Positions 2,601-20,853 of a stretch of DNA of 21,529 nt are shown here, one piece after another. The notes below the pieces were generated by a model. That model ran no database searches and had not been told where the DNA came from. It saw only the letters and a program-made list of their open reading frames with translations. The DNA is from a virus. Each line of letters begins with the position of its first letter. The stretch's first letter is position 1. Made by a program: the position numbers and the translations under genes. The stretch lies in the IMG/VR virus record IMGVR_UViG_3300027797_000165, positions 1 to 21,529 of that record. One strand, 5' to 3'.

Positions 2601-2947
2601 GTACGTGGATGAAGCCTGGAGTAGTAGTGCAGTGCTGGGATGACTTCTACAATCACAAGCACGGCCCCCTTGGAATCATCGTAGATATTGATGGGCCTTG
2701 TACCTGTACTCACGTTGTAGCGCAGATCAATCAGCTAGGAGCAAAGCCATTGCCAGAGCATTACCACCTTGAATGCCAACCAGTCAGGGGCAAACATACG
2801 CAGGATACGCGATTTTGGCATTCGTATATGTTGGCCGATGGTAAATGCATTGATGGACGTTTTTATCTAGAGAAAATCGAAGACATAACCTCAACTGTTT
2901 CCATTTTGGAAACTGTTGAAGTGCAGCTACAAATGGACTTTAGTTGA
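2597..2947 (+). CDS. Unknown early protein
   Basis: A 116-residue protein of unknown family. The start MSTWMKPGVVVQCWDDFYNH and the following GPLGIIVDIDGPC look like the first strands of a small beta-barrel. Two histidine- and cysteine-rich patches (CTCTHVVAQ and EHYHLECQ) could bind metal but are not a recognised motif. It is joined to both neighbours: ATGA overlap with the gene before and TTGA overlap with the sigma-like gene after, so co-translation is expected. No function is assigned. Confidence 0.6.
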   Translation: MSTWMKPGVVVQCWDDFYNHKHGPLGIIVDIDGPCTCTHVVAQINQLGAKPLPEHYHLECQPVRGKHTQDTRFWHSYMLADGKCIDGRFYLEKIEDITSTVSILETVEVQLQMDFS

Positions 2948-3777
2948 TACCAAGTAGATCAATCGTTCGTCAGACGCTCCGGGCTTTATCCAAGGCACCG
3001 GAGCGTTTGTTGTCTCATGAGGAGATGGTCTTACTACACCAAGCATGGGCGGCAGACATCATGCCTAAAGAGTGCATGGCGGAAATGGTTCACCGGAACA
3101 CCGGCCTCTGTAAAGAGATGGCCAAGCAGATACACAAGCAGGATGACTTTGAAGATGCCGTGGCGTTCTGCCTTCAGGGCTTGATTATCGCCATCCAACG
3201 GTGGGATTCTAGCCGGGGGCTACGGTTCAGCACTTTCGCGATGAAGTGGATAATCCAGAAGTACAGGCGCTATCAGTCAACCCAAAGCAAGACAATCAGG
3301 GTATCCGAGCACACCATCTACAAGTGGTTGCGTATCCGCAAGGCACACGATCAGCACCTCCACCAGCACGGCACGGCTCCAACCGATGAGCAGCTTTCCG
3401 GGTACACCGGGCTATCGGTTACGATGATACGCATAGCCAGGGACTCCCAACAAGTACAACCGGTTAGTATCAATGTACCGGTGTCTGGCACGGATGGGTT
3501 AGTCTATGAAGATTGCAGGGTGCTAGGAGCCTCCACAAGCCCCGAAGAGGCGTTTATCGCTGAATCATGGGCAGATAGGCTGGGTGATGCTTTGCTGAGT
3601 CTAGATGACGATTCAAGATATTTGCTGGTGAGGCGCTTTGGTTTGGATGGATCTAAGCCGGAGACCCTGCGGACGATAGCAAGCAGGTACAAGACTCCGG
3701 TTACTGTCATCGAGGCGCAGATAGAAACAGCCTTGGCAAGCATCCGGGGGCGCTATGAAGTGGAAGACCTGACTTGA
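2944..3777 (+). CDS. Phage-encoded sigma-70 family factor
   Basis: A 277-residue protein with the domain order of a primary-type sigma factor lacking region 1.1. Residues about 10-35 resemble region 1.2. Region 2 includes DAVAFCLQGLIIAIQRWDSS, then GLRFSTFAMKWIIQKYRRYQ, matching the conserved 'GLxxAxxxFDxxxGxxFSTYAxxWIxQ' block used for core binding and -10 melting. Next comes SKTIRVSEHTIYKW (start of region 3). Region 4 is at about 210-272 (ALLSLDDDSRYLLVRRFGLD, ETLRTIASRYKTPVTVIEAQ). The start is TTG, overlapping the upstream stop. It would redirect host RNA polymerase, plausibly to later phage promoters. An ECF factor is unlikely because region 3 is present. The family call is strong; the promoter target is unknown. 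Confidence 0.85.
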   Translation: MIPSRSIVRQTLRALSKAPERLLSHEEMVLLHQAWAADIMPKECMAEMVHRNTGLCKEMAKQIHKQDDFEDAVAFCLQGLIIAIQRWDSSRGLRFSTFAMKWIIQKYRRYQSTQSKTIRVSEHTIYKWLRIRKAHDQHLHQHGTAPTDEQLSGYTGLSVTMIRIARDSQQVQPVSINVPVSGTDGLVYEDCRVLGASTSPEEAFIAESWADRLGDALLSLDDDSRYLLVRRFGLDGSKPETLRTIASRYKTPVTVIEAQIETALASIRGRYEVEDLT

Positions 3778-8786: not shown

Positions 8787-8989
8787 TACCTTTTGCTTTT
8801 GGTGCTTTGGTGGGGGCTGGTTGCGTGGTGGTATGGTCGGAGATGTATACACGCTGGCTGTATAAAGATGTGAAGCGTAGAGCCAAGCGGCAGGGCATCA
8901 CCGACCAGCAAATGAAAGATGCCCTCATATGGGCAACGACCGAAGAAATCGAGGAGAGCCTACATGGCAGCACAACCCGGAGCAGGTAG
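8783..8989 (+). CDS. Small single-pass membrane protein
   Basis: 68 residues from the ATG at 8783 (ATGA overlap, preferred over a longer upstream frame). The N-terminal hydrophobic stretch IPFAFGALVGAGCVVVW acts as a membrane anchor. A basic stretch follows (KDVKRRAKRQG), then a helical cytoplasmic tail (TDQQMKDALIWATTEEIEES). Its 3' end overlaps the terminase small subunit start by 26 bases. No family is recognised; similar small membrane proteins are common before terminase genes. Confidence 0.55.
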   Translation: MIPFAFGALVGAGCVVVWSEMYTRWLYKDVKRRAKRQGITDQQMKDALIWATTEEIEESLHGSTTRSR

Positions 8990-9329
8990 ACCAACCAAGT
9001 ACAGCCCAGTGGTTGTACAGCGGATTACAGACGCTCTGCGAGGTGGTAACACCCGCAGGGCTTCTTGTGCTGCCGCTGGTATAAGTCAGGAAACACTGGC
9101 TAGATGGTTAGCCGAAAATGTTGATTTTAGGGATGCTATAGAAAAGGCCGAAGGCGAGGCAGAGCTACGCAACCTTGCAGTCATCCAAGATGCAACCCGT
9201 ACGACATGGCAAGCGGCGGCGTGGTGGCTGGAGCGCAAGCACAAAGCCGACTGGTCTAGCCGGGTAGAGCAGACCGGCGCTGACGGTAGCCCGGTAAAGG
9301 TGATCGTGGAGTACGCAGACAAACCATAA
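8964..9329 (+). CDS. terS: Terminase small subunit
   Basis: 121 residues from the ATG at 8964, supported by GAGGAG seven bases upstream. The start AAQPGAGRPTKYSPVVVQRI followed by an HTH (NTRRASCAAAGISQETLARW) is the standard small-terminase pattern. It would recognise the packaging site. A helical segment (FRDAIEKAEGEAELRNLAVI) serves for oligomerisation, and WQAAAWWLERKHKADW is the widely seen motif preceding the large-subunit interaction tail. The stop overlaps the large subunit start (TAATG). Confidence 0.85.
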   Translation: MAAQPGAGRPTKYSPVVVQRITDALRGGNTRRASCAAAGISQETLARWLAENVDFRDAIEKAEGEAELRNLAVIQDATRTTWQAAAWWLERKHKADWSSRVEQTGADGSPVKVIVEYADKP

Positions 9330-10510
9330 TGCCTGACATACGATTGGTTCTCCCTCGACCTCATGAAGCACAGCAGGTGATAATGGCACAGGCAAGGCGC
9401 TATAACGTCCTTGCCTGTGGCTGAGTAGGTCGAAGATTCGGTAAGACCACGCTGGGCGGTAACTTGCTCAGTGACCCGGTGCTGATTGACGGGCTACCTT
9501 GTGCCTGGTTTGCACCTACCTACAGACTCCTAGAAGAGGCATACGCCGATCATAAGAGAATCTATGCTCCTGTTATCCGCCGAGCCGTACAAAGCCCAGC
9601 CCCGCGCATCGAGCTTATAACCGGGGCAGCAATCGATTACTGGACTTTGGATGACCCGTCTACCGTAGCCCGTGGTCGTAAGTACAAGCGGGTCATCATC
9701 GATGAGGCAGCGATGGCACGGCATCTAGAGCAAGCCTGGACGGAAGCAATCCGCCCAACGCTAACCGATTACAAGGGGGATGCGTTCTTTCTGTCAACGC
9801 CCAAGGGTAGCAACTACTTTAGGACGCTCTACAATCAGGCCGCTACTGATGCCGACTGGATGAGCTGGCAGATGCCAACCACGGCTAACCCCTGGATTGA
9901 TCCGGAGGAAGTAGGCAAGGCGGGAGAATCACTGCCGAGCATTGCTTTCCGGCAGGAGTATTTAGCGGAGTTTGTCGATGCTGCGGGAGCGCGTATCAAG
10001 CGGGAGTGGCTACGGTACGGCGATTGCCCTGAAGGGTTGCCTACCTACATCGGCGTTGACCTTGCTATATCAACCAAGAGCGAAGCAGACTACACCGGCG
10101 TGGCGGTTGTATCCCGTGGCGACGATGGCACGATATACGTTAGAGACATCAACCGTACCCGCTCAGACTTTGCAGCTGTCCTGCGCTTCATCGAGGCTAT
10201 GGCCGATAAGTGGAAACCATCTATGATCGGCATCGAGCAGGTGCAGTACCAAGCCGCTGTTGTGCAGGAACTTCTACGGCGCACCAAGTTGCCCATTAGG
10301 GGCATCCGCCCAGACCGTGACAAAGTGACCCGCTTTGCGCCTCTGGAAGCCCGCTACGAGCAATCACAGGTTATGCATTGCCAAGGCCTACCGGCATACT
10401 TTGAAGATGAGCTACTATCCTTTCCCGTTGGGCGGCATGATGACGTGGTTGATGCCCTGGCTTATGCTTGGCAGGTGTGCGGATCAAAGCGAAGTTGGGG
10501 AGCCGTCTAA
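9329..10510 (+). CDS. terL: Terminase large subunit with in-frame TGA at Walker A (candidate translational bypass)
   Basis: Start ATG 9329 overlaps the terS stop. The frame reads RLVLPRPHEAQQ...RRYNVLACG, then TGA (9422-9424), GTA, and resumes GRRFGKTTLGGNLLSDP in the same frame. The rest is a full Terminase_6-type packaging motor: Walker B RVIIDEAAM (Asp at codon 125), coupling motif FFLSTPKGSNYF, nuclease IGVDLAIS (codon 244), IEQVQYQAA and RHDDVVDALAYAW. Removing TGAGTAGGT gives the family sequence ACG-RRFGKTT and a protein of 390 residues. Restart at CTG 9452 or TTG 9464 would lose the P-loop. It could be a bypassed gene, a readthrough gene or a broken gene; intact neighbours argue against decay. 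Confidence 0.85.
9387..9430 (+). promoter_or_regulatory. Candidate recoding signal in terL: stem-loop, GGC-TGA take-off, GGT landing
   Basis: CACAGGCAAGG (9387-9397) and CCTTGCCTGTG (9409-9419) form a perfect 11-bp stem with an 11-base loop. It ends on the first base of Gly codon GGC (9419-9421). TGA (9422-9424) and GTA follow, then GGT (9428-9430), also Gly and read by the same tRNA. A GAG (9423-9425) lies just before the GGT. This layout parallels the take-off and landing codons, stop and stem-loop of T4 gene 60. Confidence 0.5.
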
Positions 10511-10529
10511 AATATATACACCTATACCC

Positions 10530-10558
10530 TTGCAGTATATATACCTACAGTGTATATT
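10530..10558 (+). promoter_or_regulatory. Promoter of the moron-like gene
   Basis: TTGCAG (10530-10535) and TATATT (10553-10558) are 17 bases apart. The palindrome GTATATATAC (10535-10544) lies in the spacer, and AATATATACAC upstream mirrors GTGTATATT. The layout CCCTTGC, 16 bases, GTGTATATT equals the leftward promoter at 1974-2002, implying shared control by the same regulator or polymerase. Confidence 0.65.
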
Positions 10559-10585
10559 ATTGACATCAAGCAGGGAGATAGAACA

Positions 10586-10864
10586 ATGGAAACACAAGGT
10601 ACAGCGATGGTTATGGAGCAGTTGGAGATTGCACAGGCAGCCGGTAAGTCAATCGTTATGACAAAGCAGATTGCTGATGTTTATATTGCAGGAAGAATCT
10701 ACACCTACAACGAGTTGATCAATGAGTCTATGTACTGGACTATCGTACTAAACACCCGCTGCACACTCAACAACAACAAGATTGTTACCCGCTCCTGCGA
10801 ACTGTCCTTCATGGATGCAGAAGAGGCAAAGCAATACAAGGGTGGAACATACGAACTAAAGTAA
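10586..10864 (+). CDS. Unknown moron-like protein between terminase and portal
   Basis: 92 residues from the ATG at 10586, with SD GGGAGATAG. The sequence has a helical start (METQGTAMVMEQLEIAQAAG) and a beta-rich middle (YWTIVLNTRCTLNNNKIVTR). The end is SFMDAEEAKQYKGGTYELK. There is no membrane segment or signal. The gene stands alone with its own promoter and intrinsic terminator inside the late operon, the definition of a moron. Its promoter and leader resemble those of the gene at 1632-1940 rather than of its neighbours. Morons often serve lysogenic conversion or defence, but this protein's function is unknown to me. Confidence 0.7.
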   Translation: METQGTAMVMEQLEIAQAAGKSIVMTKQIADVYIAGRIYTYNELINESMYWTIVLNTRCTLNNNKIVTRSCELSFMDAEEAKQYKGGTYELK

Positions 10865-10881: not shown

Positions 10882-10908
10882 GCCCCCGCAAGGGGGCTTT
10901 TTCTTTTT
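10882..10908 (+). terminator. Intrinsic terminator of the moron-like gene
   Basis: GCCCCC (10882-10887) pairs with GGGGGC (10892-10897) around GCAA, followed by TTTTTCTTTTT (10898-10908). This is a textbook rho-independent terminator 18 bases after the stop codon. Late transcription from terL must cross it or restart after it; the repeated element at 10908 sits exactly at its end. Confidence 0.9.
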
Positions 10909-10924
10909 GTGGGATACTGAAGCC
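10908..10924 (+). promoter_or_regulatory. Repeated pre-start element, copy 1 (portal gene)
   Basis: TGTGGGATACTGAAGCC directly precedes the portal ATG (10925). It matches copies at 14985-15001 and 17291-17306. GATACT lies six bases before ATG, where a -10 box of a leaderless transcript would be. No ordinary SD is present. Confidence 0.55.
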
Positions 10925-12466
10925 ATGGGTATCTTTGACCGCTTCCTTGGGCGTAAAGCCGCAGCCAACCCGACACAGGCACTACCGCTGCCGTTGTCTC
11001 AGTCTAGAGACATCTACCTCACGGGGTACGGCTCTGGTCAGCTGCAGACATTGCTACGCCGGGCGCTCCCTGGAAGTACTAAGGACTGGGCTAGAGTTGC
11101 CGGTGACTTAGGGCTGAATGGGGTTGTCGCTAGTGCGATTGACTGGTACGTCAGGAACTACCCACAAGCCACACCACGGCTCTATCGACCGGTAGACAGC
11201 CAGCAGGCAGAACCGGTAGAAGACCACCCGGTATTGCAGCTCATGGCGCAACCGGATCCGATGATTATGGGGTCTTTATTCTGGGGCTGGTGCATCCAAG
11301 ACTACAAACTATTCGGCAACACTTACCTGAGAAAGATACGCTCTTCCACCCGTGGCACGGTGACCGCTTTGCAGTTTCTACCGCAGGATATGGTTAGACC
11401 GGTAGGTAATGGGGTAAACCCGTTGACCCACTACATCTACACCACGGATGGCCGCTCCTTTGACATCCCGGTAAGTGACATCATCCATATTCGGTACGGT
11501 AGAGACCCAAGCGATATCCGGATAGGCCGTGCGCCGCTTACCGCCGTCCTGCGTGAGATTGCAACCGACAACACGGCCAGCACTACCGCATACGGGTTGC
11601 TTGCCAACGGTGCTATGCCTAGCCTCATTGTCGGGCCTGATGCCAAAGAGACCAGCGTTGATATGTCGATGGACGATGCCCGGCAGGTGAAGCGGCAACT
11701 TCACGAAGACCTAACCGGGGACGGCTCAGGCGGCATCGTGGTTATGACCGGTGCCTACAAGATGGATAGGGTTAGCCTTACGCCTTCCGAGCTTGCTTTG
11801 GATTCTGTGAGACGTGTACCAGAGGAGCGTATCTGTTCAGCCCTTGGCATCAACCCGATGGTTTTGGGCCTTGGTTCAGGCTTAGAGCGGTCTACCTACA
11901 GTAATTATGAGAGGGCGCAACAGGCCGCATGGGAAGACGGCATGGTGCCTTTGCTCCGTACCTTGGCGGATGCGATTACCGCTGATCTGCTGCCGGAATA
12001 CCCGGAAACTCAGCAGGGTGATTACGTCATGTACGACCTTGAAACGGTCAGGGCGCTTGCTGATGACCTACAGGCTGAAGCGTTGCGGGCGGAGAAACTG
12101 TACAAGTCTGGCATCATTGATCGGGCTGAAGCCAAGCGCATAGCAGGCCTTGAAGCCGTGCCGGAAGATACCGGGGTATTGCATCCATCCGCGATCAGCG
12201 TACAGGCTGGCACGAGTGCATCGCTGGCAGAGACAACCAACGCGGCAGGTATCCTCATTCGTTCCGGTTACGATCCGGGTAGCGTTACGAGCTTCCTGAA
12301 CCTGCCAGTCCAGCACACGGGAGCAGCACCGGTTACCCTGCGGGATGAAGCGGCCAAAGCCTACGACGGCAAGAGCCTTGACACCGACCACGTATGCACT
12401 CCGGGGGTAGTGTATAAGAGCCACCCTTTTTACGGGTACGAGCTGGAGATCAGCTCAAGCGAGTAG
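10925..12466 (+). CDS. HK97-type portal protein
   Basis: 513 residues from the ATG at 10925 (MGIFDRFLGRKAA). An in-frame TTG 18 bases upstream would add six residues but belongs to the repeated leader element. Features of the Phage_portal family are present: an N-terminal Gly/Leu region, VASAIDWYVRNYPQATPRLY, GSLFWGWCIQDYKLFGNTYL (wing/clip core), the signature DIIHIRYGRDPSDIRIGRAP and a C-terminal crown region with Ala-rich helices (ADDLQAEALRAEKLYKSGII). It forms the dodecameric DNA channel at the capsid vertex and docks the terminase. It is followed by the MuF gene and protease, the usual order. Confidence 0.92.
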   Translation: MGIFDRFLGRKAAANPTQALPLPLSQSRDIYLTGYGSGQLQTLLRRALPGSTKDWARVAGDLGLNGVVASAIDWYVRNYPQATPRLYRPVDSQQAEPVEDHPVLQLMAQPDPMIMGSLFWGWCIQDYKLFGNTYLRKIRSSTRGTVTALQFLPQDMVRPVGNGVNPLTHYIYTTDGRSFDIPVSDIIHIRYGRDPSDIRIGRAPLTAVLREIATDNTASTTAYGLLANGAMPSLIVGPDAKETSVDMSMDDARQVKRQLHEDLTGDGSGGIVVMTGAYKMDRVSLTPSELALDSVRRVPEERICSALGINPMVLGLGSGLERSTYSNYERAQQAAWEDGMVPLLRTLADAITADLLPEYPETQQGDYVMYDLETVRALADDLQAEALRAEKLYKSGIIDRAEAKRIAGLEAVPEDTGVLHPSAISVQAGTSASLAETTNAAGILIRSGYDPGSVTSFLNLPVQHTGAAPVTLRDEAAKAYDGKSLDTDHVCTPGVVYKSHPFYGYELEISSSE

Positions 12467-14984: not shown

Positions 14985-15001
14985 TGTGGGATAGTGAAGC
15001 C
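14985..15001 (+). promoter_or_regulatory. Repeated pre-start element, copy 2 (protease gene)
   Basis: TGTGGGATAGTGAAGCC directly precedes the protease ATG (15002). It differs from copy 1 by one base although 4 kb apart, and lies after the AT-rich MuF extension and its partner gene. GATAGT sits six bases before ATG. In-frame ATG 14984 would give MWDSEA before Met, but copy 3 shows that this peptide is not conserved. Confidence 0.55.
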
Positions 15002-15958
15002 ATGGACTTGCTGACATCTACCGTTGACGGTATCAAGAGCGACCGGTTAGGCTACGTCAAGGGCTACCTGGTTCGCTTTGGTGATACCAAGACCGCTGAC
15101 CTTGAAGGTGACTTTTTCACCGCTTCAACGGACTACGGCTTTCCGGTTGCCAAGGGGCAGCGCGTACCGCTCAACGTGTACTATCACCACGGCATGGATG
15201 CCGCTGTCGGTAAGAAGAGCATCGGTACAGGCTACATCAAGATGGACGATACCGGCTTATGGTACGAGGCACAGTTAGATCTAGCCGATGAATACGGCTC
15301 GATGATTGCAAAGCTCTGCAAGCAAGGCAAGATGGGCTTTTCATCTGGTGCCGCTGGTCATCTGGTAGAGCGCAAGAGCATGGGCGGTGCCGCTGAGATT
15401 ACCCGCTGGCCTATCGCTGAAGCAAGCATTACCCCAACACCCGCCGAGTATCGTAACAGTGTAAAGAGCCTGAAGGAGTACTACGGCATGGAGCCTATGA
15501 TGGATATGGAAGAAGAAGAGATGGTAATGGCTCCAATGCCTGAGCAGTCCCCTGAAGAATACGCCATGTCGGTATTTGATGAGTCCGAAGGTGACCTTAT
15601 CCACGAGGGGCTTGAAGCCTACTACGATGCGCTCTGTGGGGCCATCGAAGCCGTATCAGATCAAAGCATGGCGGATGCCATCATTGATGAATTTGCTCGA
15701 CGTGCAAAGGGCTTGTATGCCATGCACGGCATGAAGAGTGTACAACCCGCTTCCCTGCGGGGTGTTGAACGTCGGCTGCGGGAAGCAGTCGGTCTTAGCC
15801 GGACAAGCGCAAAGCGCCTTGCCCCTGTAGTCTGGGATTCACTGCGGGATGCAGGCCAGCCAGAGACGCAACCGGTACTCGTAGTAGAGGCGAAAGCCCA
15901 TGATATTGATGAGCGAGCTGACATATTGGCTCGCTTGGAGTTGTTGACACAACTATGA
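15002..15958 (+). CDS. Prohead maturation protease (HK97 type)
   Basis: 318 residues from ATG 15002. It has the HK97 prohead protease (U35/S78) layout: an N-terminal LGYVKGYLVRFGDTKTADLE, catalytic His in VYYHHGMDAAVG (H62/H63), GTGYIKMDDTGLWYEAQLDL, nucleophile in GKMGFSSGAAGHLV (S114/S115) and RWPIAEASITPTPAE. The C-terminal half (acidic MDMEEEEMVMAPMPEQSPEE, then helices) resembles a scaffold-like extension, so it may both scaffold and process the capsid. Its stop overlaps the capsid start (ATGA). It acts in the procapsid, trimming the capsid N-terminal delta domain. Confidence 0.9.
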   Translation: MDLLTSTVDGIKSDRLGYVKGYLVRFGDTKTADLEGDFFTASTDYGFPVAKGQRVPLNVYYHHGMDAAVGKKSIGTGYIKMDDTGLWYEAQLDLADEYGSMIAKLCKQGKMGFSSGAAGHLVERKSMGGAAEITRWPIAEASITPTPAEYRNSVKSLKEYYGMEPMMDMEEEEMVMAPMPEQSPEEYAMSVFDESEGDLIHEGLEAYYDALCGAIEAVSDQSMADAIIDEFARRAKGLYAMHGMKSVQPASLRGVERRLREAVGLSRTSAKRLAPVVWDSLRDAGQPETQPVLVVEAKAHDIDERADILARLELLTQL

Positions 15959-17290: not shown

Positions 17291-17306
17291 TGTGGGATAG
17301 TGGAGC
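17291..17306 (+). promoter_or_regulatory. Repeated pre-start element, copy 3 (connector gene)
   Basis: TGTGGGATAGTGGAGC precedes the ATG at 17307 and is one base shorter than the other copies. The in-frame ATG at 17290 here gives only MWDSGA and a stop, so conservation is at the nucleotide level, not in a leader peptide. Confidence 0.55.
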
Positions 17307-17804
17307 ATGATGACACGAGCCGAAGCGATAGCGCAGGTATCACTTTTTGTAGATGCCCAGTCCTATCCGCAGATGTCCACCACCGACATAGGGAGCATCT
17401 TAGATTCCTACTCCCGGTTCAGCACTTGGACGGCTAGCACCACCTATGCTGTCGGTGACCGTGTAGTGCCTACAACGCCCAACGGCAGGGTGTATGAGTG
17501 TCGAGTAGCCGGTACGTCAGGCACGACACAACCTGATTACCCTGTCTACGCTCCCTACCAAGTCAAGGGCTTTACGCTAGAAGATGGCACCGGTGACCCA
17601 ACCCTGATGTGGGTGGACCAAGGCCCGATCAATGTTGAGCGCTACGATGTCAGGACAGCCACCCGCCAAGCATGGATGATAAAGGCTAGCCGTTGCGCTT
17701 CAGACATCGATGCTAAGGAAGGCACAAGCGATGTCAAGCTCTCCCAACTCAAAGCCCACTGCCTTTCAATGGCTGAACGATACCGCCCCCTGGTGTTCGC
17801 ATGA
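17307..17804 (+). CDS. Head-tail connector with inserted carbohydrate-binding-like domain
   Basis: 165 residues. The N-terminus (MMTRAEAIAQVSLFVDAQSY) and the C-terminus (RTATRQAWMIKASRCASDID, then KLSQLKAHCLSMAERYRPLV) form the helical bundle of gp6-type head-tail adaptors. Between them, about residues 36-110, sits WTASTTYAVGDRVVPTTPNG, RVYECRVAGTSGTTQPDYP and a final W. This is the pattern of chitin/carbohydrate-binding modules of the CBM5/12 kind seen in phage proteins. It would project from the neck. Position right after the capsid supports the connector role. The carbohydrate ligand is unknown. Confidence 0.68.
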   Translation: MMTRAEAIAQVSLFVDAQSYPQMSTTDIGSILDSYSRFSTWTASTTYAVGDRVVPTTPNGRVYECRVAGTSGTTQPDYPVYAPYQVKGFTLEDGTGDPTLMWVDQGPINVERYDVRTATRQAWMIKASRCASDIDAKEGTSDVKLSQLKAHCLSMAERYRPLVFA

Positions 17805-18375: not shown

Positions 18376-18623
18376 ACAGCATATCAATCAAAAGACTCGT
18401 GGTCGTTGTGATCGTGGCTTTCGTAGCTGCATTCACTTCCGTATTTGGCGATGGCATCCGCACATCCGAAGCACACGACATCGCCGAGCTCGGCGCAGTG
18501 CTTGCACTCTACGGGAGCAAGGCGGTAGCGGCTGGTGTCTCCGCTGCGGTGAGTTCTGTGCTGGCGTTCTTGACGATGCCGTTCAAGGGTACAAATGCGA
18601 ACAGCCTGAAGGTGGGCAAATGA
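18372..18623 (+). CDS. Putative holin with two membrane segments
   Basis: 83 residues with two hydrophobic helices: residues 9-26 (LVVVVIVAFVAAFTSVFG) and about 42-68 (AVLALYGSKAVAAGVSAAVS onward to a LAFLTMPF end). A short polar loop separates them and a basic tail (KGTNANSLKVGK) follows. This is the layout of class II holins. It lies among connector and spike genes rather than beside an endolysin, and no endolysin is visible in the window, so the lysis role is inferred from topology only. Confidence 0.5.
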   Translation: MNSISIKRLVVVVIVAFVAAFTSVFGDGIRTSEAHDIAELGAVLALYGSKAVAAGVSAAVSSVLAFLTMPFKGTNANSLKVGK

Positions 18624-18853
18624 CACCTGTGAACCTTATGAACTACCGAGCAGAGCGCACTGCGGACGGTACTGACTGGATTCTGTACGGTGAAATCACC
18701 GACAACAATAATCAGGTGCTGGCGTCATTCGGGCCAGATGGAACATCGCTCAACCAGTGGTGGGTGCAACAAGATAGTAACTTTCAAGAGACTTATGTCA
18801 ATATGTTTGCTGGGATTATGGCATCTGAAATTGTGAATGGAACGGCTGAGTAA
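18620..18853 (+). CDS. Unknown small protein before the spike gene
   Basis: 77 residues, starting by ATGA overlap and ending by TAATG overlap with the spike gene. The sequence is beta-rich (YRAERTADGTDWILYGEITD, then NNNQVLASFGPDG) followed by a helical C-terminus (NFQETYVNMFAGIMASEIVN). Its position and composition fit a small virion or fibre-associated component. I recognise no family. Confidence 0.55.
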   Translation: MTPVNLMNYRAERTADGTDWILYGEITDNNNQVLASFGPDGTSLNQWWVQQDSNFQETYVNMFAGIMASEIVNGTAE

Positions 18854-20853
18854 TGGCAACGTATTACGTCAGGACAGATGGGTCTAACACAAACACCGGT
18901 ACTGGCTCAGGCACTGGTGCGGCGTGGGCTACGGTTGCTCATGCTCTTGGTGGTACTGGCACAGCCAGCGGCGTTACGGGTGGTGACACCATATACATTG
19001 CACCCGGTAAGTATGCTGGTCTTACAATCGCCGTTGCGCCATCCAGCACCTTGAGTGTTATTGGAAATCCTAGTGGGTCACAGTTTGGTTATGCAATTGC
19101 GCCGGGGCCTATTCACATCTCTAATACATTAGATAAATCTGTATCAAGTGTTACTAAAGGCATCATAGCAACAAGCAAAAACAATATTACGTTAAAATAT
19201 CTAGTTGTCGCAGGGTTGTCGGCAACAACTTGTCACAACTGGATTATAGATAGTTGCCATTTTTATCAGAACATAGGAGATCAAAATCCTGTGTTGATGA
19301 CATTTACTGCTGGTGTAGATGCAAATACTCAAATATTGAACACATCAGCTGAGAATGGCCAATGGAGTTCTAGCTGTTTTAGTATTACATTTGGCAACCA
19401 TAGTTCTACCTATACTTCATCATTTAAGATGTACAACATTGCTGTTAATAACAACAGAAGCACTGTTGACATAACTTTAGCGTGCAACAACGCAACGGGT
19501 ATTGTGTTGTCAAATATCTACAGCAGTAAGAGTACGACAGTAACTGGAACTGTTGCGGGTCAAGCAAAGATTATCAACTCTATACTGCAATACATAACTG
19601 GTAGTATCGGAGGAAATCTAACAGAAGAGTACAACCTTTTCATTTATGGATTTTCTGTAAATCGTACAAATGTGGCGTCTAGTGTAAACAGTTTTGTAGC
19701 GAATGCCCCATTAATTTATGGTGATTTGATGGCTCAGTCTGGAGCCGGTTCAAACAGTTCACTGCAACCGATAGGGACAGTATTCAATCAACTGCAATAT
19801 GGCACATTAACAGATGCACCTACAACGGATTACTTTGGTAATACCTATGGTGCGACTATGACTATAGGCGTAGCCAAATCTGCAACGCTAACAGGAGCAG
19901 GTGTCTATTCAGCCACAGAGCGGAACGCATCCGCCATCACAATCGCTCCCGGTAGCACATCCCAAAGTATCGAAATCTACCTTGGTGCTACAGGTCTAAC
20001 CGCCTCCACATCTGGTCTCTCAGCTCGGTACAACCGCACACGCACAGCATCTGTATCTATCCCGCTGGTAGCCCGTACAATCGCTCAGGCGTGGACAGCA
20101 GGCGGCTTTGCGGAGGTAGACGCAACCAATATGCCGGGCGTGTACAGATTGGACATTCCCGATGCTGCACTGGCTGCTGGTGCTGATGATGTCACTATCG
20201 TGGTGCGTGGTGCTTCTGGTACAAACGGTGCGGTAATGACGGTCAAACTATCCTCTGGTGGCTTGACGGAAGCACAGACTGCCTCGGCTGTATGGGGTGC
20301 AAGCCCAGCAGGCTACAACGATGGCACAACATTCGGTGGTGTTGTTAACACTATTGCAACTGTGGCTAATGACATTGAGTCACAAGTCCAAGATGTTCCG
20401 GGCAACGTCTGGGATGAGCTTAGAACGAACCACAGCACGGCAGGCTCATTCGGTCAGTATGTCAATGCCGAACTTGTTACCCCGGTAACCTCTGCCGCTC
20501 TGGTACGTATGGGGCCTTACGAGGTTAGAGCGGATGGCTTGGGAGCATCTGATCCGCTAGACATCCAGAAGGGCGCACAGCATGGCGTAGACATCCAGTG
20601 TGTAGATGCCTTTGGTAGCGGGATAGACATCACGAGTGCAACGGTAACCGCTAAGGTCTACAACTCTGGTGCTACCTTGGTTGATACTTACTCCTGTACG
20701 GCAACTTATGCAGCTGATGGCAGGGCAACGTTTACGATTGACACAACGGTAACGGACACTCCAGGCACCTACACGGCAACGATTACAAGGACAACCGGGG
20801 CATCTGATACGCAGATATTCGGCCCGTTACGCATCTATGTGAGGGACATCTGA
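18853..20853 (+). CDS. Right-handed beta-helix tailspike or fibre
   Basis: 666 residues. The start MATYYVRTDGSNTNTGTGSG with WATVAHAL and GGDTIYIAPGKYAGLTI is the common opening of phage parallel beta-helix proteins. Repeated short strands with N, S and T turns continue to about residue 330 (for example NITLKYLVV, NWIIDSCHFY, NATGIVLSNIYSS). A second domain (about 345-560) contains ARTIAQAWTAGGFAEVDATN and MPGVYRLDIPDAALAAGADD, a block shared by many phage fibres. The C-terminal 110 residues form an Ig/BppU-like domain ending FGPLRIYV. The helix part of the DNA is AT-richer than both flanks, suggesting exchange of the receptor-binding module. Confidence 0.72.
   Translation: MATYYVRTDGSNTNTGTGSGTGAAWATVAHALGGTGTASGVTGGDTIYIAPGKYAGLTIAVAPSSTLSVIGNPSGSQFGYAIAPGPIHISNTLDKSVSSVTKGIIATSKNNITLKYLVVAGLSATTCHNWIIDSCHFYQNIGDQNPVLMTFTAGVDANTQILNTSAENGQWSSSCFSITFGNHSSTYTSSFKMYNIAVNNNRSTVDITLACNNATGIVLSNIYSSKSTTVTGTVAGQAKIINSILQYITGSIGGNLTEEYNLFIYGFSVNRTNVASSVNSFVANAPLIYGDLMAQSGAGSNSSLQPIGTVFNQLQYGTLTDAPTTDYFGNTYGATMTIGVAKSATLTGAGVYSATERNASAITIAPGSTSQSIEIYLGATGLTASTSGLSARYNRTRTASVSIPLVARTIAQAWTAGGFAEVDATNMPGVYRLDIPDAALAAGADDVTIVVRGASGTNGAVMTVKLSSGGLTEAQTASAVWGASPAGYNDGTTFGGVVNTIATVANDIESQVQDVPGNVWDELRTNHSTAGSFGQYVNAELVTPVTSAALVRMGPYEVRADGLGASDPLDIQKGAQHGVDIQCVDAFGSGIDITSATVTAKVYNSGATLVDTYSCTATYAADGRATFTIDTTVTDTPGTYTATITRTTGASDTQIFGPLRIYVRDI

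Follow-up and report, generated by a model that had tools for sequence, protein, structure and literature searches.

An in-frame stop codon in terL

The window (the whole 21.5-kb virus record analysed here) carries terS, terL, portal, protease, major capsid, primase/helicase, sigma factor and Erf genes. In terL (9329–10510), which starts at ATG 9329, the N-terminal part reads MPDIRLVLPRPHEAQQVIMAQARRYNVLACG and is followed by a TGA codon (9422–9424) ahead of the Walker A motif. The same frame resumes at 9425 and runs to a TAA at 10508–10510; at the stop, the +1 frame leads to TAG at 9426 and the −1 frame to TAA at 9442. An earlier note on this DNA had described the stop, the shared frame on both sides of it and the two closed alternative frames with coordinates that all proved correct, and had stated that deletion of nine bases would give the family sequence; terL minus these 9 nt does read ACGRRFGKTT, an exact match to uninterrupted homologues. 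The note's argument that TGA serves as a stop elsewhere was borne out by the ends of the long ORFs in the window (5 of 13) and in related genomes G001–G005 (6–9 of about 20). Genome-wide reassignment of UGA was therefore rejected. No tRNA genes were found in the related genomes examined.

Table 1. Positions of the features in and around terL in the window
Feature	Position	Strand	Basis or remark
terS	8919..9329	+	PHROG 4102 terminase small subunit, E 5.7e-29; stop overlaps terL start (TAATG)
Putative hop cassette: start codon, 31 terL ORF1 codons and block	9329..9430	+	Fst, carriers versus non-carriers
5′ hairpin, 11 perfect bp (13 with loop-side CG pairs)	9387..9419	+	15 distinct sequences all paired
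Putative take-off codon GGC (Gly)	9419..9421	+	GGC in 78/78 carriers
Putative non-decoded gap TGAGTA with in-frame TGA	9422..9427	+	TGA invariant; GTA in 75/76 nine-base blocks
Putative landing codon GGT (Gly)	9428..9430	+	GGT 71, GGC 6, GAT 1
terL ORF2: 359 codons and stop, Walker A onwards, ATPase and nuclease domains	9431..10510	+	Pfam Terminase_6N, Terminase_6C

The 11-bp stem-loop that the note had described as ending on the take-off codon was present as a perfect inverted repeat (9387–9397/9409–9419), and two more loop-side pairs and one bulged U extend it to a hairpin of 13 bp, the 3′ end of which takes in the first G of the putative take-off codon. At −23.6 kcal/mol the hairpin of the window is far more stable than synonymous recodings of the same peptide (mean −12.0 kcal/mol), of which only 11 in 5000 were as low.

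Two repeated motifs were seen at other genes. The motif TGTGGGATA(C/G)TG-AGC(C)ATG coincides with the starts of portal, protease and one head-completion gene (10908–10936, 14985–15012 and 17291–17318); it resembles a late promoter whose start is nearly leaderless and may be served by the phage's own sigma factor (2944–3777). Several early genes carry the leader TTGA(C/T)..GGAGATA(A/G)AACAATG (10550–10590 in the window; genes 18444–19117 in G001), which reads VDVPSGTGDKTM in open frames and suggests a recurring unit that serves as early promoter and ribosome-binding site. The terL–portal interval (10335–10864 in the window) is a site of gene turnover, measuring about 20 nt or about 280–750 nt among relatives and holding unrelated small genes.

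Related phages with and without the block

A first search for relatives returned 80 contigs with TerL proteins 97–99% identical to that of the window; the block and hairpin were identical in 12 of these and exactly 9 nt were absent from the other 68. A degenerate pattern, in which the Ala-Cys-Gly wobble positions, two gap positions and the landing codon's third base were left free, matched 79 contigs, every one with the same element, and further variants were obtained with a pattern allowing a gap of 0–30 nt and any landing codon and with a pattern of the hairpin alone. In total there were 78 distinct carrier terL sequences including the window (77 others), from about 70 IMG datasets (metagenomes) as tallied by hand from contig names; these counts are not independent owing to shared descent of the cassette and recombination. 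Non-carriers were collected by similarity to the window. Sequencing or assembly error was rejected because the identical block recurs in about 70 datasets. No version of the block with TAA or TAG was found, a wider TAA/TAG/TGA pattern returning the same element only, and the element was absent from cultured phages by blastn, from bacterial genomes in one pattern scan and from Rfam. No neighbouring gene was linked to the block, as carriers had terS, a dUTPase-like gene or other genes upstream. The host could not be named from TerL similarity, the matches to Chloroflexota being at most 37% identical over full length. Two of the block-free terL genes, L029 and L187, differ from each other and share a single contig of 62434 bases (IMGVR_UViG_3300042429_000522), about twice the usual genome, which is either an assembly chimera or a dimer made up of two related phages.

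The terL frame beyond the stop has the properties of a working gene in the carriers. Every contig of sufficient length had 359 open codons past the landing codon, shorter contigs were open to their end, and none of the 78 carriers had a stop or a frameshift further downstream. Median dN/dS beyond the stop was 0.063 in carriers and 0.050 in non-carriers, and 0.042 when only the 60 codons that follow the stop are counted, although all these ratios are approximate because dS is near saturation in many pairs. One carrier contig (G002, the source of L158) shows a terminal repeat of 127 bp and represents a complete circular genome of 32.4 kb. A second terL was sought and rejected, as six carrier records (G002 and five others including the window) each gave one Terminase_6N match. 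The carriers are intact phages and not the decayed prophages that the note had raised as an objection.

On the terL tree carriers and non-carriers were intermixed, with 26 changes of state, at least 12 of them forced by well-supported branches. One explanation for this mixture is that the block inactivates terL and that carriers are recent dead ends, re-made by recombination. We regard this as very unlikely given the open downstream frame, the dN/dS as low as that of non-carriers, the complete circular carrier genome with its single terL, and the compensatory stem changes and restricted landing codons described below. Differentiation between carriers and non-carriers was restricted to the stretch running from the start codon to the end of the block, where Fst was 0.39–0.59 from −90 to −1, against about 0.05 beyond on both sides. 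Judging from these sequence comparisons, the block together with its 31 upstream codons is a cassette of about 100 bp that is swapped between phage lineages. The nine-base block that the note had taken as the unit is therefore real, but the unit is larger, since the 31 upstream codons travel along. The distant carrier L114 provides a clear example: its nearest TerL relatives, 97% identical downstream, are without the block and read NVVSCG where L114 reads NVLACG, and its similarity to them falls from about −150 to 0 and recovers past the block, so NVLACG evidently came in with the cassette. L182 showed the same pattern within its own group.

The Erf-like annealing protein of the window is a plausible engine of such short exchanges. 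A homing endonuclease partner was rejected, as none adjoined terL in the records examined; no GIY-YIG domain was found in 14 records, an HNH_3 domain lay about 4.6 kb off in one record and a sub-threshold HNH match was seen in one non-carrier. A further sequence, L189, has the hairpin of the cassette and lacks the block. This demonstrates that block-free forms occur in nature and might be taken to favour removal of the block from mRNA or DNA ahead of translation, by splicing, by editing or through a minority of block-free genomes. However, no known intron type fits 9–11 nt, Rfam gave no match, the restriction of the landing codon to GGY would be left unexplained, and L189 itself fits recombination with a block-free relative; we consider such removal highly improbable.

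Take-off, landing and the proposed hop

The codons on either side of the gap were strongly constrained. Take-off was GGC with TGA directly 3′ of it in all 78 carriers, while non-carriers used GGG, GGC or GGT. Landing was GGY in 77 of the 78 and never GGA or GGG; at the same position non-carriers (n = 66) had GGG in 36, GGC in 16 and GGT in 14, and elsewhere downstream in carrier terL all four Gly codons were in use. A single tRNA-Gly with anticodon GCC reads both GGC and GGU. The GTA of the gap was fixed in all but one of the 76 nine-base blocks, the variant being TGAGAA in L182 (GTA to GAA), whereas codons +1 to +5 vary freely at synonymous sites. Two carriers, L169 and L173, from two datasets and with two terL backgrounds, have an 11-nt block, GGC-TGAGTGTA-GGT, with a gap of 8 nt. 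These blocks change the frame, so that only re-pairing on GGT joins both frames; there is no start codon in the rescued frame, and dN/dS against the nearest carriers was 0.034, subject to the same saturation of dS. The single GAT landing sequence (L161, L176 and L185, three datasets, identical over the region compared) has an intact downstream frame, and either near-cognate landing is tolerated in this lineage or a different process operates there.

The hairpin was conserved with the block, a point that the note had proposed to check by aligning close homologues. All 195 of 195 cells in the hairpin alignment were paired in 15 distinct sequences, with compensatory changes at pairs 21–39 (A-U to G-C) and 24–36 (G-C to A-U) that always kept the amino acids. 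Mean folding over the hairpin stretch was −23.7 kcal/mol in carriers and −13.5 kcal/mol in non-carriers, and synonymous diversity in carriers reached its gene-wide minimum at codons −17 to 0 (0.16 versus 0.40). The peptide [ML]AQARR[YF]NVLACG, which might act as a nascent-peptide stimulator, was invariant in carriers, an invariance that RNA constraint alone could explain. The element includes a conserved 5′ stem-loop with a putative stimulatory role. No conserved structure was present in the gap among carriers, and the take-off codon and gap form no stem-loop. Pairing of the gap with 9464–9475, predicted in the window, was rejected because its target is common in non-carriers and lost in many carriers.

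Comparison of the carriers shows a genuine and conserved block, beyond which the frame is translated and under selection; the hop itself and the pulling by the hairpin are what we infer. We propose that terL is very probably decoded by a programmed translational bypass, an in-frame stop-hop that restores the normal protein. The ribosome would synthesize a peptide of 31 residues up to GGC; once UGA occupies the A site, the peptidyl-tRNA-Gly would release GGC while the mRNA slips by 9 nt (11 nt in the two variants). The same tRNA would then re-pair on GGU (or GGC), decoding would restart at the Walker A arginines, and the product would be the uninterrupted family sequence LACG-RRFGKTT. The hop from GGC to GGT that the note had put forward gains support from the conservation of the element with its compensatory stem changes, the purifying selection past the stop, the landing codons shared by one Gly tRNA and the 11-nt variants. 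The 5′ edge of the ribosome lies about 14–15 nt before the P site. At take-off the 3′ arm of the hairpin would accordingly sit inside the ribosome, and loop-side pairing would become possible only after an advance of 9–11 nt; the hairpin might then refold as the mRNA exits the ribosome and pull the mRNA forward. This position relative to the ribosome edge fits what has been proposed for T4 gene 60, where the 5′ stem-loop would pull the mRNA on emergence from the ribosome (PMC5009743, PMC11194080). Two observations count against a hop: re-pairing of a cognate tRNA does not explain the GAT lineage, and the hairpin is 5′ of the take-off codon, an A-site stem-loop of the gene 60 type being absent.

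Another possibility is readthrough of UGA by a near-cognate tRNA or selenocysteine, which would add X-V-G before Walker A. In its favour, the usual block of 9 nt keeps the reading frame, and the GAT lineage could be accommodated. We nevertheless consider readthrough unlikely. Reading straight through an 11-nt block would leave the frame and meet another in-frame stop (TAG), yet purifying selection acts on the downstream genes of these variants. The GTA and the Gly codon also show constraint at the nucleotide level. No gap is needed in aligning T4 gp17 and the closest solved TerL over the span from first strand to Walker A, so three added residues, which would break this spacing, are unlikely to be tolerated. 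There is also no conserved element 3′ of the UGA, unlike a bacterial SECIS; selenocysteine was rejected for want of any conserved structure past the UGA, and is excluded by the 11-nt blocks of L169 and L173. A scheme in which ribosomes terminate at UGA and restart at the GTA overlapping it, so that TerL is made as two polypeptides, would be in keeping with the GTA that adjoins the Gly codon in both 9-nt and 11-nt blocks. We think that this hardly merits consideration, as GTA is no standard start and is GAA in L182, no start codon occurs from the stop to Walker A, the P-loop would end up on a different chain from the first core strand, and neither the GGY restriction nor the hairpin would be explained.

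Known systems and possible role

Programmed bypassing has so far been described for T4 gene 60, which is well studied, for one group of yeast mitochondria and for a few candidates. Gene 60 resembles the proposed hop in its matched Gly codons, a stop right after take-off, a 5′ stem-loop and location in an essential phage enzyme. It differs in having a gap of 50 nt rather than 6–8 nt, UAG rather than UGA, GGA at both take-off and landing rather than GGC and GGU/GGC, and a stem-loop in the take-off region, which is lacking here, where the usual hop would be in frame. The two share no homologous sequence, and the gene 60 insert has a link to a homing endonuclease whereas none lies beside terL in the records examined. 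The mitochondrial bypass elements of Magnusiomyces capitatus are likewise short inserts that are skipped in decoding and are mobile, but they are largely context-independent, occur in many genes per genome and have a relaxed landing match. Synthetic stop-hops in Escherichia coli (Weiss et al. 1987, described in PMC5009743) come close in layout, with matched codons around a stop and a gap of a few nucleotides, although these were designed constructs.

The note had regarded a bypass in a packaging motor as new. Natural in-frame stop-hopping was not known to a 2016 review (PMC5009743) and no later report was found in the open-licence literature. The idea of bypass in terL, however, has some precedent in a published candidate, Streptomyces phage phiHau3, for which regulation through host decoding of UUA was proposed (PMC5009743, citing reference 161). 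The phiHau3 record reads GGC TTACTCC GGT and joins GWG to KDPLLA. This too is a tailed-phage terL with a G-x-G-K type ATP-binding motif, GGC take-off and GGT landing; it differs in having the slow codon UUA and no stop, a 7-nt gap that shifts the frame and a different terminase sequence. Just upstream of its gap (2603–2630 of L220) we note a 6-bp inverted repeat, CTTCAG-CGG-CTGAAG, in a layout similar to that of the terL element.

If some ribosomes terminate at the UGA, the hop would set the amount of TerL. The terL start codon was ATG in 57 of 73 carriers and TTG in 54 of 62 non-carriers, a contrast that fits stronger initiation traded against loss at the stop, keeping TerL low, and that may be mere linkage because the start codon lies inside the cassette. 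Other possible roles are that the block is a tolerated insert or protects a conserved target sequence. Whether we are dealing with the first natural in-frame stop-hop, in the form of a mobile terL cassette of about 100 bp that is exchanged between phages and tunes TerL output, is in our view an even call.

The element is short, with an apparent signal of about 45 nt, and is present in an essential motor in 78 natural versions that differ in gap length, landing codon and stem pairs, with block-free relatives for comparison; what a ribosome needs for release and landing is thus directly testable. Gene callers will split such genes; where the packaging gene of many metagenomic phages seems disrupted, it is probably intact. 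Should the hop be real, GGC-to-GGU hops at the ATP-binding site of the packaging motor would, together with phiHau3, represent a repeated evolutionary solution.

In two MAGs assigned to Thermotogota (L195) and WOR-3 (L198), apparent CRISPR spacers lying between repeats match DNA encoding the terL Walker A region (ACGRRFGKT), which marks this DNA as a target of immunity in other phages.
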